Shown here piece by piece: positions 1 to 18,715 of a DNA stretch of 21,445 nucleotides. Positions within the stretch are counted from its first letter, which is position 1; each line of letters opens with the position of its first letter. The translations under genes and the position numbers were made by a program. The stretch comes from Halieaceae bacterium (GTDB lineage: Bacteria; Pseudomonadota; Gammaproteobacteria; Pseudomonadales; Halieaceae), in the NCBI GenBank assembly GCA_003331685.1, contig QOPK01000016.1, positions 1 through 21,445 of the forward strand. Direction: 5' to 3'. A model generated the notes under the pieces. That model saw only the letters and a list, made by a program, of their open reading frames with translations, had not been told where the DNA came from and made no database searches.

Positions 1-321
<321 letters not shown>

Positions 322-596
322 TATAATCCAAGTTATTTGTAGTGGATCTCTTAGCCGAAAGGCGCAGTTGCAACATTTCAGTTGCAGCATAAAGAGGAAA
401 GCTCAGAAGACTTCGGCATCGCGCGAAAGCGTGATGGTTCGAGTCTCAACCTAGGTGGCAACACTTAGCGCGGTGACGAGAGCGTGTTGTGATCGAGTCA
501 TAGTGTGTTGTCGGTGTAATCGCCCGACTGATTCAGCTTCGATTTACCGCCCTATTTGAATGGTTCTTAGCGTGCTATTTGCCATTCACACCAGTT
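322..596 (+). other. 23S-5S rRNA internal transcribed spacer
   Basis: About 275 nt separate the 23S and 5S genes, much longer than the ~90 nt in E. coli. The spacer holds no tRNA and no convincing ORF. It contains an 8-bp hairpin with a GAAA tetraloop (417-424 pairing 429-436, one G-U pair). It also holds a duplicated CAGTTGCA motif around 365-390 and weaker CAACAC/GTGTTG pairings near 459-490. These are probably rRNA processing structures, which is inferred from position alone. Confidence 0.75.
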
Positions 597-715
597 TGCC
601 TGGCGACAATAGAGTACTGGAACCACCTGATCCATTCCGAACTCAGCAGTGAAACGGTGCATCGCCGATGGTAGTGTGGGGTTTCCCCATGTGAGAGTAG
701 GTCATCGCCAGGCTT
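597..715 (+). rRNA. rrf: 5S ribosomal RNA
   Basis: This is a complete 5S rRNA gene of about 119 nt. Helix I is visible as GCCTGGCGA (598-606) pairing perfectly with TCGCCAGGC (705-713). Conserved internal stretches CCGAACTCAG, GTGAAACG, GCCGATGGTAGTGTGGGG and GAGAGTAGG match gammaproteobacterial 5S. The ends are set by comparison with E. coli 5S and are accurate to 1-2 nt. Confidence 0.97.
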
Positions 716-15728: not shown

Positions 15729-16433
15729 ATGGCACAAGAACCTGGACAAATCCCGCTACTGATGCGGAGCGAAGATCTCGCAACCTGGGATAACTGGCTC
15801 AGCCGCCCCGAGACCGCGGCCCTCGAGCAACTGCTCGTAGGTCAGGTGTCCGAGCACAGCGCCTATGTATGGGGCGGTGAAGGGATGGGCAAGAGCCATA
15901 TCCTGCAGGCCTGCTGCGATGCAGAGGGGCTGGATGCTCGCTATATTCCACTCCGGGATCTGGTCGGCTTTGCGCCTGAACAGGTGCTGGCGGATGTCGA
16001 GATTGCGCGTCTCATTGCGATCGACGACATTGATTGCGTGGAGTCTCGGGCTGGCTGGCAGGAGGCACTGTTCGCATTGTTTAACGCTTCACGGGAGACG
16101 GGTGCGCAGCTTTTGGTAACGGCGCGGAAGGCACCTCAGCAACTGCTTGAGGCACTGCCCGATCTCCGCTCTCGATTGAGCAGCCTGCCGGTTTTTCAGA
16201 TGCCGCGTTTTACCGAGGATCATATTGCCGAGCTGCTTGCGCTGCGCGGCGTGGAGGCGGGTATCGAGCTCTCGGATGACGTCGCCCGCTACTGTTCGCT
16301 GAGACTGCCAAGGCACCCGCCTGCCGTCGTGAACTTTATCAATCAGCTCGATCAGCTCAGTCTGGCGCAGCGTCGCGCCGTGACCATCCCGTTTGTCAGG
16401 GAGTCGGGATTGCTTCGTCAGGCTGAGGGATAG
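15729..16433 (+). CDS. hda: DnaA regulatory inactivator Hda
   Basis: AAA+ protein that, bound to the DNA-loaded beta clamp, stimulates hydrolysis of DnaA-ATP and so blocks re-initiation of replication; 234 aa, usual length. It has an N-terminal clamp-binding motif of the QLPLxx kind (QIPLLM, 7-12), Walker A GGEGMGKSH (49-57), Walker B LIAIDDID (95-102), DLRSRL (145-150, sensor/arginine region), and the C-terminal hallmark LSLAQRRAVTIPFVRE. The motif usually read as LPRD is here LPRHPP. The ribosome-binding site is poor. The 27-nt gap to DUF2066 suggests co-transcription. Its last 38 nt overlap the convergent transporter gene. Confidence 0.94.
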   Translation: MAQEPGQIPLLMRSEDLATWDNWLSRPETAALEQLLVGQVSEHSAYVWGGEGMGKSHILQACCDAEGLDARYIPLRDLVGFAPEQVLADVEIARLIAIDDIDCVESRAGWQEALFALFNASRETGAQLLVTARKAPQQLLEALPDLRSRLSSLPVFQMPRFTEDHIAELLALRGVEAGIELSDDVARYCSLRLPRHPPAVVNFINQLDQLSLAQRRAVTIPFVRESGLLRQAEG

Positions 16434-17184
16434 CGTACTGGTCAGGCTCTAGCTCCAGATAGCCCCGTAACCAATGCACCAATAGATACAGCGGCACCGT
16501 ATCGATCAATGCGCACACAGCCTTGAACGCGTAGTTACTGCCTACCAGGGTGAGTAGGGCGGCCGCGGCAATATCGCCCGCCAAAAAAGTCGCACCGAAG
16601 GTTACGGTCACCACCATGATGGAATCCACCAGTTGGCTCAAGAGTGTGCTGAAGTTATTTCTGAGCCATAGGTGTTTGCCCCGAGTGAGCCGCTTCCAGA
16701 AGTGGTAGATCTGCACGTCACAGTATTGTGCGGCGATGTAGGCCAGCATCGAGGCAAAAACCGCGCCTGATGTGGTGGCGTAAATCAGCTGAAAGAGTCC
16801 GATTTCAGACTCCACCACGGTGCCATTCGGGAGCGTGACCGGGGCGGCCAGCTGCAGCACCTGCCAGGGAGGCATCACTGCTTCAGGCACTGAGGGCGCC
16901 ACAGCACCCACTGTCAGCACACCCAGAATGAGGAGGTTAATGCCCAGACCCACGCTGACGAGAAAATTCGCGCGGGCCTTGCCATAGAGTTCACTGATTA
17001 AGTCAGTGCAGAGAAAAGTGAGCGGGTAAGGGAGCACCCCGACCGCAAGCGCCAACGGGCCAAATTGGATAAAGCGGGTGATGCCCACCACATTGAGCAA
17101 CGTCATGGCCGAGAGAAAAATACCCGCTAGGACTAAAAATGTGCGCTCACGGCGCTCGCTGATGGCAGCGGTGCTGGCGGTCAT
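16396..17184 (-). CDS. yhhQ: YhhQ/VUT-family (DUF165) queuosine-precursor-type transporter
   Basis: Inner-membrane protein of about six helices, 262 aa. The hallmarks are LPYPLTFLCTDLISELYGK (51-69) and LRNNFSTLLSQLVDS (174-188). E. coli YhhQ imports the queuosine precursors preQ0/preQ1, so uptake of a 7-deazapurine is the best guess; the substrate here is not proven. Between helices it carries an inserted loop (about 96-125), and its C-terminus is acidic/proline-rich. The start at 17184 is set by GGAG 7 nt upstream and by its place 1 nt after the SDR stop (TGACATG); a longer ATG reading runs back into the SDR gene. The 3' end overlaps hda by 38 nt on the opposite strand. Confidence 0.9.
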   Translation of the reverse strand: MTASTAAISERRERTFLVLAGIFLSAMTLLNVVGITRFIQFGPLALAVGVLPYPLTFLCTDLISELYGKARANFLVSVGLGINLLILGVLTVGAVAPSVPEAVMPPWQVLQLAAPVTLPNGTVVESEIGLFQLIYATTSGAVFASMLAYIAAQYCDVQIYHFWKRLTRGKHLWLRNNFSTLLSQLVDSIMVVTVTFGATFLAGDIAAAALLTLVGSNYAFKAVCALIDTVPLYLLVHWLRGYLELEPDQYAIPQPDEAIPTP

Positions 17185-17185
17185 G

Positions 17186-17896
17186 TCAGTGCTCCACCTG
17201 CCCCAGATTGCCATGCATGACTGAACCGTTAATGACGGGGTGGTGGTGAGCCCAAAGGATGAGGTCTGCAATTTCATCGGGGGCGACGAGTCTGCCGAAG
17301 CTATTCATTTTCCCCAGGCTGTCGAGCACGGTGTCATCATGGCCGACGTGCTGGCGCAGCATGCTGGTGTCGGTGAAGCCTGGACAGATGAGCGCGGTGT
17401 GAATGCCTCTGCCCATCAGGTCCTGACAGGTTGCCCGCATCATGCCCAGCTGGGCGTGTTTGCTGACGATGTAACTGAATGCACCAGCCACGGCCTTTTC
17501 AGATAGCGTAGAGCCCACGTAGAGCACGCTGGAACCGGTTGGCATCAGCGGCAGCAAGTTGCGATTCAGCGAGTTGATACCCACCACGTTCACCGACAGG
17601 ACCCGAGACAAGTCGGAGTCCTCGGTGGTGTCGCATTGGTCCTTTAGCATCAAGGATGCATTGTGAACCAAACACACTGGTCCGCCGCCGGCGTCCGACA
17701 CTGTGGCTGCTACTGCTGTGCAGGTTCTGGCCGTGGACTGCTCGTCAGCCAAGTCAGTGGTCAGTGTCTCGACACCGGGCACGGGGCAGTCACGGCGGGA
17801 AATATTGATGACCGTAAATCCGCACTCAACAAATCGCTCCGCCGCTGCTGCGCCAATACCGGAGCTCGCTCCGGTCAGTATCGCGATCGGGTCCAT
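17186..17896 (-). CDS. Short-chain dehydrogenase/reductase, pteridine-reductase-like candidate
   Basis: Classical-size NAD(P)-dependent SDR, 236 aa. Visible are the cofactor motif T8-GASSGIG15, N103, the catalytic S129-x12-Y142-xxx-K146 and CPGFTDT (171-177). The usual NNAG is VHNAS (77-81). NAS in this place is also seen in the pteridine reductases FolM (E. coli) and PTR1 and so hints at a pterin substrate, though other SDRs have it too. R34-R35 after the second strand would favour NADPH. AGGAG lies 5 nt before the ATG. It is co-transcribed with yhhQ (1-nt gap) and divergent from a PTPS-family gene, as would suit a pterin or sepiapterin reductase. Substrate assignment is inference. Confidence 0.88.
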   Translation of the reverse strand: MDPIAILTGASSGIGAAAAERFVECGFTVINISRRDCPVPGVETLTTDLADEQSTARTCTAVAATVSDAGGGPVCLVHNASLMLKDQCDTTEDSDLSRVLSVNVVGINSLNRNLLPLMPTGSSVLYVGSTLSEKAVAGAFSYIVSKHAQLGMMRATCQDLMGRGIHTALICPGFTDTSMLRQHVGHDDTVLDSLGKMNSFGRLVAPDEIADLILWAHHHPVINGSVMHGNLGQVEH

Positions 17897-18052
17897 AAGG
17901 ACTCCTGAGAAATTTCAGAGGGCGACAGGGTACTGCAGGCACAGCTTAGGGTCACGGACTTGCTGCGCGGCGCTAGCTGGGTGGCCGCGCCTGCGGACTT
18001 GCCGAAGTTGGACGCATCACCCACCATAACGGCAAACGGTGAGGGATCTCCC

Positions 18053-18535
18053 ATGAGCCAGCTGGCGACACTGCACATTGACAAACAAGCGCACAAGTTT
18101 TCTGCGGCCCATTTCACCATTTTCTCCGAGACCGACCGGGAGCGCTTGCATGGACACAACTACGGCGTGTCCGCACGCATTGTGGCGGCGATGGGAGACA
18201 ACGGTTTTTCTGCCGACTACAACGTATACAAACGGGCGCTGCAGCGGCTTTGCGATGACCACGATGAGTACATGTTGCTGCCGAGTCAGTCGCGCTGGCT
18301 GAGGGTGACTGAGGAGGAGGGCGAATATCTGGCGACCTTCGATGGCAAGACACTGCGCTTCCCAATCGACGAGACGCTTCTTCTGCCCATCACCAATGTC
18401 ACTGTAGAGGCGCTGGCCCATTACTTGCTGAATCGGCTGATGGAAGAGGCAGAGTTGGGTGATCTTGTGGAACTGGAGCTGTTTGTCAGCTCTGGCGATG
18501 GGCAAATGAGCTCGGCCTGCTGGCGAGCACCCTAA
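18053..18535 (+). CDS. 6-pyruvoyltetrahydropterin synthase/QueD family protein, atypical
   Basis: Pterin-synthase (T-fold) protein, 160 aa. Zinc ligands are clear: H20 in KFSAAHF and H33/H35 in LHGHNYGV. The Cys that acts as base in QueD (CxxxHGH) is Arg29 here. Glu30 gives ExxHGH, the pattern described for PTPS-III, the variant that can replace FolB in folate synthesis. H70 (CDDHDEY) and T117-x-E119 (NVTVEALAHYL) are retained. The usual pterin-anchoring Glu near the C-terminus seems replaced (FVSSGDGQMSSACW). A ~40-residue insert (about 71-112, LLP...LLPI) recalls archaeal-type homologues. The ATG at 18053 has GAGG 8 nt upstream; the longer reading from 17960 adds an unconserved tail. Fold certain, reaction not. 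Confidence 0.85.
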   Translation: MSQLATLHIDKQAHKFSAAHFTIFSETDRERLHGHNYGVSARIVAAMGDNGFSADYNVYKRALQRLCDDHDEYMLLPSQSRWLRVTEEEGEYLATFDGKTLRFPIDETLLLPITNVTVEALAHYLLNRLMEEAELGDLVELELFVSSGDGQMSSACWRAP

Positions 18536-18550
18536 AAAAACGCTTTTTTT

Positions 18551-18578
18551 GGAACTTTTCGCTCAAACCTCTGTCATA
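18551..18578 (+). promoter_or_regulatory. ECF/RpoE-type sigma factor promoter
   Basis: GGAAC (18551-18555), exactly 17 nt, then GTC (18573-18575) followed by ATA matches the general ECF promoter form GGAAC-N17-GTC. It also resembles RpoE/AlgU (GAACTT-N16-TCnnA). A7-CGC-T7 (18534-18550) directly upstream could act as an A/T-rich UP element, or as a weak terminator hairpin for the preceding gene. The start of transcription would be near 18581-18583. Confidence 0.55.
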
Positions 18579-18581
18579 GAG

Positions 18582-18715
18582 ACAGTTGTTGAGATGGCGA
18601 TGTCCGCGGGTGCACCGCAAGGGAAACATCTGAGCAGCGAGGGTCCGACTACTGAGATCCTCCCCGTTTTGAGTGGCTCCTTCATTGCCGGCTGATATTC
18701 AGCCGGCTTTTTTTT
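18582..18715 (+). ncRNA. Candidate ECF-controlled small RNA (~130 nt)
   Basis: A transcript from the ECF-like promoter to the strong terminator would be about 134 nt and lies wholly between genes. It can fold into three stems. In stem 1, GATGT (18599-18603) pairs with ACATC and encloses GCGG-GTGCA-CCGC. In stem 2, GAGGGTC (18639-18645) pairs with GATCCTC (18656-18662), 7 bp with one G-U. Stem 3 is the terminator with a U8 tail, as favoured by Hfq. A 33-codon ORF (18594-18695) also fits inside, without a ribosome-binding site. The RNA is predicted from sequence only; I recognise no known sRNA family. Confidence 0.5.
18687..18715 (+). terminator. Strong intrinsic terminator
   Basis: GCCGGCTGA (18687-18695) and TCAGCCGGC (18699-18707) form a perfect 9-bp stem with a 3-nt loop, followed by eight T (18708-18715). 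It works on the + strand only, since the reverse side has no T-run. It ends the candidate small RNA and any read-through from the PTPS-family gene. Confidence 0.95.

Follow-up and report, generated by a model that had tools for sequence, protein, structure and literature searches.

Among the proteins of the 6-pyruvoyltetrahydropterin synthase (PTPS) family, COG0720, the motif ExxHGH is typical of PTPS-III and CxxxxxHGH of PTPS-II, tetrahydrobiopterin is known to be made by a PTPS together with sepiapterin reductase, and misannotation is frequent (PMC5041015). Membrane proteins of COG1738 (YhhQ/QPTR) form a family of queuosine-precursor transporters (PMC5372724), and a 2026 review (PMC13259868) states that the passage of pterins through membranes is not understood and that an efflux system for them has yet to be identified. 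Here we describe a locus in a contig of a Halieaceae bacterium (QOPK01000016.1, assembly GCA_003331685.1; the whole stretch analysed, 21,445 nt, is called the window) in which a PTPS homologue, a short-chain dehydrogenase/reductase (SDR) and a COG1738 transporter are encoded side by side. Judged from sequence data, the linkage of these three genes in marine gammaproteobacteria suggests that a small ring compound is handled by a pathway not yet described.

The three genes and their families had been recognised within positions 16396..18535 in the initial annotation of the window, with which the open reading frames and the concordant Pfam and NCBIfam assignments agree (Table 1). The stop codon of the SDR gene and the ATG of the transporter gene are 1 nt apart, as annotated, and the PTPS gene is divergent from this pair across 156 nt, against about 155 nt stated initially. 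The proposal that the trio constitutes a single functional module is strongly supported by the near-perfect co-occurrence of the PTPS homologue and the SDR, by their close linkage in changing order and by a transporter clade tied to them. The genome-wide statements given below refer to genomes of relatives and not to the window's own genome. The main sample included 245 genomes of the same order as G009 (Luminiphilus syltensis; genomes and loci are given by our G and L numbers), with a requested completeness of at least 90%; this order is Cellvibrionales in NCBI and Pseudomonadales in GTDB. The PTPS profile matched 59 genomes at E 1e-3, and after five matches with E above 1e-4 were dropped, 54 genomes were left, the weakest match kept being at 9.9e-40. 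The SDR was found in 55 genomes (threshold E 1e-45), among them all 54 with the PTPS homologue and one more, G110 (Fisher p 7e-54, only a rough guide with kinship ignored). Linkage in relatives, proposed as a check together with the initial annotation, is conserved: the PTPS and SDR genes are at most 2 kb apart in 49 of the 54 genomes, while in the other five they are apart in the genome or on different contigs. One genome (G233) carries two PTPS genes and two SDR genes. A phylum-wide sample of 397 genomes gave two PTPS-profile matches at 1e-12, in the centre genome and in G582, and the search of plasmids and phages gave no match.

Two sets of loci were compared, 80 Halieaceae-like loci from the genome collection and 43 non-Halieaceae loci (a 44th, G131, was excluded because a contig end cuts it). 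The loci closest to the window come from Halieaceae/Luminiphilus-like draft genomes, with a PTPS identity of 92-96% in L001-L004. The SDR gene lies beside the PTPS gene in 77 of the 80 loci, and in 68 the transporter gene is present too, always in the order of the window; in the three loci without a scored SDR the PTPS gene is at most 363 bases from the end of the stretch, and one of them (L038) has an SDR fragment. The non-Halieaceae loci contain the SDR in 39 cases and the transporter in 20, in five further three-gene arrangements, which makes six arrangements over the 123 loci (genes within 9 kb were counted, and other genes may intervene). Since gene order shifts while proximity lasts, a shared function is indicated rather than inherited synteny; the possibility of chance linkage or mere synteny was rejected on account of these changing orders and of co-occurrence without linkage. 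Named carriers of the module include Halieaceae, Zhongshania and Spongiibacter. Neighbours were clustered over both sets, and those chosen were compared with Pfam. Beyond the trio, the non-Halieaceae loci encode an MFS transporter (8 loci), a luciferase-like protein (7) and PrkA, DUF444 and SpoVR proteins (9 each), which seem to track sublineages and yielded no pathway.

The PTPS homologue is not a QueD. It scores 42.5 bits with the NCBIfam QueD model (cut-off 89.25) and 33.7 bits with TIGR00039 (cut-off 125.5), and among solved proteins the Plasmodium PTPS structures are closest to it in sequence (phmmer E 7.6e-19). When the family profile was compared with solved sequences, Plasmodium PTPS was matched at E 7.6e-33 and the best QueD at 1.5e-5. 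In a tree of 50 rows, in which every second row of the 43-row family alignment (A2) was used, the 22 family rows form a single clade (100/100) separate from eight Halieaceae QueD rows, contrary to the clustering within QueD that had been named at first as a refuting outcome; the position of this clade among the Plasmodium, diatom and other ExxHGH rows is not resolved by the tree. On the basis of the model scores, the Plasmodium matches and the tree, the homologue is placed by sequence within the ExxHGH group with the long insert, of which it forms a derived branch. The insert of about 40 residues, initially described as an extra feature, is present, and is not peculiar to this protein, as it also occurs in ExxHGH proteins of Plasmodium, diatoms and other sources. 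Sources that name family members label them 6-pyruvoyl- or 6-carboxytetrahydropterin synthase, and the family lacks the defining residues of both enzymes. One locus of Halioglobus pacificus (L206, G010:C1:630000-642000) contains a 333-aa open frame with two PTPS-domain matches.

The residues invariant over the 43 rows of the family alignment include H20, R29, E30, H33, G34, H35, D71, E72, E119, S147 and Q151. The three histidines, the Arg at the catalytic Cys position (Arg29) and Glu30 of ExxHGH (E30-R-L-H-G-H) had been read correctly from the sequence; with them the protein carries the PTPS-III motif, and neither CxxxHGH of QueD (PTPS-I) nor CxxxxxHGH of PTPS-II was found in it. The equivalent of Glu30 in P. 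falciparum, Glu38, is required to form 6-hydroxymethyl-dihydropterin (PMC2229834), and the Glu30 column has Ala in one of three Plasmodium rows, altered versions of the P. vivax protein being among the solved sequences. The absence of the pterin-anchoring Glu, also noted initially, is borne out by two alignments: at this position (E161 in P. falciparum) the family has Ser147 in 43 of 43 rows, and alignment to the solved Plasmodium enzymes places Ser147 there as well. In the rows of the tree, all 22 family members carry Ser in this column, whose residue is Glu in each of the 24 comparison rows that have one, namely Plasmodium (3/3), other eukaryotic (7/7), mixed (6/6, with four gaps) and QueD (8/8), where the labels eukaryotic and mixed are ours, given from source names and lengths. 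This Glu is presumably a general anchor of T-fold enzymes. For PTPS, that view is backed by passages of PMC7546909, which count malarial H29, H41, H43, H80, T127 and E161 among the residues of the active site or of importance for catalysis, and describe E161 and T127 as key to substrate recognition. The counterpart of Thr127 is Val118, a position with Val, Ile or Leu in the family and with Thr, Ser or Ala elsewhere, except for Val in two of ten mixed rows. The residue after Asp71 is Glu72, instead of the His of Plasmodium and QueD; this change is not family-specific, since Glu is also found in 7/7 other eukaryotic and 6/10 mixed rows. Thus, as aligned, the catalytic base appears to be retained while two reported substrate contacts are altered. 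The loss of Glu suggests that the substrate is read unlike ordinary pterins or 7-deazaguanines, and makes an ordinary pterin or an ordinary deazapurine less certain as substrate. With two substrate contacts and the His of Plasmodium and QueD changed, the protein might no longer be an enzyme and might serve as a ligand-binding sensor or an assembly partner of the SDR; this is very improbable, as none of the 43 rows departs from the three zinc-ligand His, the Glu base or E119, which would be unusual for a dead enzyme.

Given the ExxHGH motif and the Plasmodium enzymes as best solved relatives, the homologue could have a PTPS-III role in folate synthesis, making 6-hydroxymethyl-7,8-dihydropterin instead of, or alongside, FolB. 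Six of 22 Halieaceae genomes and 8 of 13 further close relatives gave no FolB match, including the 5.1 Mb genome of Halioglobus japonicus BC5_1 (G011), which was outside the control described below. However, FolB is matched in the other 16 and 5 genomes, respectively, and a separate QueD, with a strong match, in 17 of the 22; the search for separate genes had been recommended with the initial annotation. The FolB-less drafts of close relatives, which had suggested replacement, were controlled by searching 21 genomes for TsaD, of which nine gave strong matches and eight only weak ones, to a related family member. FolB directly follows TsaD in eight of the nine (in G003 a contig end truncates it), and the contig of the ninth, G633, breaks off within TsaD, while in the FolB-less drafts the neighbouring gene is missing or cut too. 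The absences in the genomes checked in this way follow gaps in assembly, therefore the homologue is no evident substitute for FolB on genomic grounds, nor, in view of the separate QueD genes, for QueD, and the replacement mentioned in the initial annotation is disfavoured. Besides, the anchoring Glu is lost in every family row, and no part in a FolB-type reaction is known for the constant SDR partner. A folate role is accordingly held to be improbable.

The SDR retains the glycine motif, Asn103, Ser129, Tyr142 and Lys146 in 30 aligned members, in which the NLGQxE tail is invariant. The initial annotation had connected it with FolM and PTR1 by its HNAS motif, which these enzymes share. This connection did not hold: HNAS is not diagnostic, being HNAA, HNAG or HNAC in many relatives, and a FolM/PTR1-like SDR was rejected for want of the TGX3RXG signature, in place of which TGASSGIG is found, with Gly13 instead of Arg in all 30 rows. 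TGX3RXG together with YX3K is the mark of pteridine reductases (PMC13259868), and the YX3K part is present (Y142 and K146). Taken as a whole, the first interpretation is supported in part, strongly as regards the module, but not as regards the FolM/PTR1 link and the peculiarity of the insert.

The pairing of a PTPS homologue with an SDR invites comparison with a tetrahydrobiopterin- or monapterin-like cofactor or signal pathway, in which the PTPS homologue would form a keto-pterin from dihydroneopterin triphosphate, with the SDR acting like sepiapterin reductase. A protein with Biopterin_H domains is found in 9 of 15 module-bearing Halieaceae genomes, and two SDR genes unlinked to PTPS (G037, G048) adjoin GGDEF proteins. 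However, the remaining six genomes gave no Biopterin_H match, both the catalytic Cys and the anchoring Glu are lost, and the SDR has no TGX3RXG; we also know of no tetrahydropterin pathway that needs a COG1738 transporter. Such a pathway is therefore regarded as unlikely. The Biopterin_H matches belong to open frames of 504-622 aa (L123-L132), each with two matches, which are perhaps aromatic amino acid hydroxylases.

The transporter scores 112.6 bits with TIGR00697 (cut-off 50.95), which places it in the queuosine-precursor transporter family, and far below the cut-off with PRK11212, a model for 7-cyano/7-aminomethyl-deazaguanine transporters (38.2 against 252). COG1738 proteins as such are not specific to the module, since they occur in 109 of the 245 genomes; they are present in 49 of the 54 with the PTPS homologue, and in 30 at a distance of up to 6 kb from its gene. 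A tree was built of 61 sequences: 21 linked transporters (23 were found in 31 chosen loci, and two truncated ones were excluded), 20 unlinked (from 16 of the 19 genomes whose copy is distant, together with the second copies of G233, G015, G018 and G022) and 20 from the 60 genomes that have COG1738 and lack the PTPS homologue. All 21 linked sequences and four unlinked ones from PTPS-positive genomes form a single clade (100/99), whose joins with neighbouring clades are unsure owing to a long-branch warning. There is thus a module-specific branch of the transporter, present at times alongside a second COG1738 gene.

The family role of COG1738 also allows salvage of queuosine precursors, in which queuine, or a compound derived from it, would be imported by the transporter and then trimmed by the SDR and the PTPS-like protein to a 7-deazaguanine that TGT can use. 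TGT was found in 37 of 39 genomes. In six close relatives, G001-G006 (L001, L003, L008, L010, L013, L017) no full QueC was detected, three have no separate QueD and four have TGT; QueC missing and TGT present means that these relatives may salvage such precursors, and the lineage of the window has possibly lost preQ0 synthesis, unless the pattern is due to gaps in draft genomes. In contrast, full-length QueC is encoded in 22 of 31 module genomes, where salvage is for this reason not needed; it is in two pieces in G182, and in G017 and G256, as in G001-G006, full QueC is absent or only weakly matched. Many module genomes have no transporter nearby, and the second COG1738 genes of G015, G018, G022 and G233 fall outside the module clade. 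A riboswitch search in 20 sources found none. Moreover, the edge normally recognised by the lost Glu is also the one that a 7-deazaguanine offers. A queuosine link stays possible in the window's lineage and does not explain the module elsewhere, and as a general account salvage is rather improbable.

The reading that we favour, tentatively, and which falls short of probable, is that of a dedicated three-gene module, whose enzymes would modify a planar heterocycle at its side chain and whose transporter would carry the substrate or the product. The PTPS-like protein would be a zinc T-fold enzyme with Glu30 as the catalytic base, as in malarial PTPS, and might cleave or rearrange a hydroxylated side chain of a small planar heterocycle, an atypical pterin or deazapurine, which is probably held unlike an ordinary pterin because the anchoring Glu is replaced by Ser147. 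The SDR could perform an NAD(P)H-linked redox reaction on a carbonyl or alcohol before or after this step, and the COG1738 protein could import the substrate or move the product; genomes without it would have to use a different route. The genes, their linkage and co-occurrence, the residue changes and the transporter clade are observed, whereas zinc binding, the chemistry, the direction of transport and the class of substrate are all points that we infer. More doubtful, and no better than possible, is that the family represents a new class of T-fold enzymes without the Glu by which the 2-amino-4-oxo edge of pterins and deazaguanines is read. Together with its SDR and its own COG1738 clade, this class would serve in marine bacteria an undescribed pathway in which a non-standard pterin-like compound is either taken up and converted or made and exported.

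Several observations weigh against a dedicated module of this kind. The transporter is not an obligate part of it: a COG1738 gene is found only at a distance from the PTPS gene in 19 of the 54 genomes, in 13 of them on another contig (in G131 beside the SDR), and no match was obtained in five, of which G238 has a fragment at a contig end. Sixteen of the 20 unlinked transporters are outside the module clade, including 12 of the 16 from genomes with a distant copy. The best solved matches of the SDR are generic FabG-like and glucose-dehydrogenase-like enzymes, which say little on its substrate. The lower-scoring SDR relative of G110 has no PTPS partner and lies among genes of acyl-CoA dehydrogenase, TetR, glyoxalase and thiolase. 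It scores 319.7 bits, whereas the top copy of every one of the 54 genomes reaches 340.7 or more, and is treated as a paralogue; this is a judgement on a narrow score gap, because second copies score 336.1 (G193), 331.4 (G212) and 305.4 bits (G078). Finally, Ser147 and main-chain contacts might still hold a pterin. The surroundings of the second SDR copy of G078 resemble in layout those in G110 (loci L267 and L270), with gene annotation covering the neighbours in G110 only.

The window contains some further features (Table 1). Ribosomal RNA genes lie at its start (23S, of which the 3' end is present, and 5S), and the transporter gene overlaps tail-to-tail with the Hda gene by 38 nt. A sigma-70-like site was looked for in the divergent intergenic region and none was found. 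Between the PTPS stop codon and a TlpA-like gene there is a candidate small RNA, with strong nucleotide conservation between the window and seven relatives. Its first letters, GGAACTTTT, resemble a sigma-E promoter element. It ends in a terminator-like stem of nine pairs followed by a T run, although such sites are no more numerous in the scanned region than expected by chance. A 13-mer of its core lies downstream of the PTPS gene on the same strand in 22 of the 80 genome-collection loci; the fold z-score is -2.93 and all Rfam matches are sub-threshold.

Table 1. Features of the window discussed in the text
Feature	Position	Strand	Length	Remarks
23S rRNA, 3' end	1-322			
5S rRNA gene	599-713			
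Overlap of Hda and transporter genes	16396-16433		38 nt	tail-to-tail
COG1738/Vut_1 (YhhQ/QPTR) membrane transporter	16396-17184	-	262 aa	
SDR oxidoreductase	17186-17896	-	236 aa	TGASSGIG, Ser-Tyr-Lys, HNAS, NLGQxE tail (conserved); constantly paired with the PTPS homologue
Divergent intergenic region	17897-18052	.	156 nt	patches conserved between the window and 11 relatives
PTPS-like zinc-site T-fold protein (putative)	18053-18535	+	160 aa	R29, E30xxHGH, D71-E72, V118, S147-G-x-G-Q151
Candidate small RNA	18551-18708	+		
Terminator-like stem of the candidate small RNA	18687-18707			followed by a T run

A literature search found no published description of the trio or of the PTPS subfamily; most subscription papers, including the one cited for PTPS-IV to VI, were outside its scope, and the homologue could conceivably be the little-described subfamily PTPS-V. 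The available parts of PMC5041015, PMC5372724, PMC11130926, PMC5445326 and PMC13259868 make no mention of either, and a paper on Halieaceae genomics (PMC10100682) contains none of six pterin, queuosine and vitamin terms. The COG1738 clade tied to the PTPS/SDR pair is a concrete candidate for pterin transport, the pathway is testable because the SDR partner is constant, and cultured Halieaceae and Spongiibacteraceae carry the module.

Compared with described systems, the PTPS homologue is nearest to Plasmodium PTPS-III (PDB 1y13, 2a0s) and to the long-insert ExxHGH proteins of diatoms and bacteria, with which it has in common the zinc His triad, RExxHGH, the long insert and a C-terminal Gln. 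It differs from the Plasmodium enzymes in having Ser147 for E161, Val118 for Thr127 and Glu72 for His80 (Glu72 being shared with diatoms and others), and in the constant SDR partner; in addition, most genomes keep FolB. QueD (PTPS-I) shares PF01242 and the zinc-ligand His with the homologue, which, however, has no catalytic Cys, scores below the model cut-off and forms its own clade, the QueD gene being separate in most Halieaceae. The pairing of a PTPS-family protein with an SDR is common to the module and to PTPS-II with sepiapterin reductase, but the homologue lacks CxxxxxHGH and its SDR is at most a putative sepiapterin reductase. FolM, PTR1 and PruA share the SDR fold and an HNAS-like motif with the SDR, from which TGX3RXG is absent. 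The transporter resembles YhhQ/QPTR (COG1738) in exceeding the cut-off of TIGR00697, and differs from it in the PRK11212 score and in the distinct clade formed by its linked copies.

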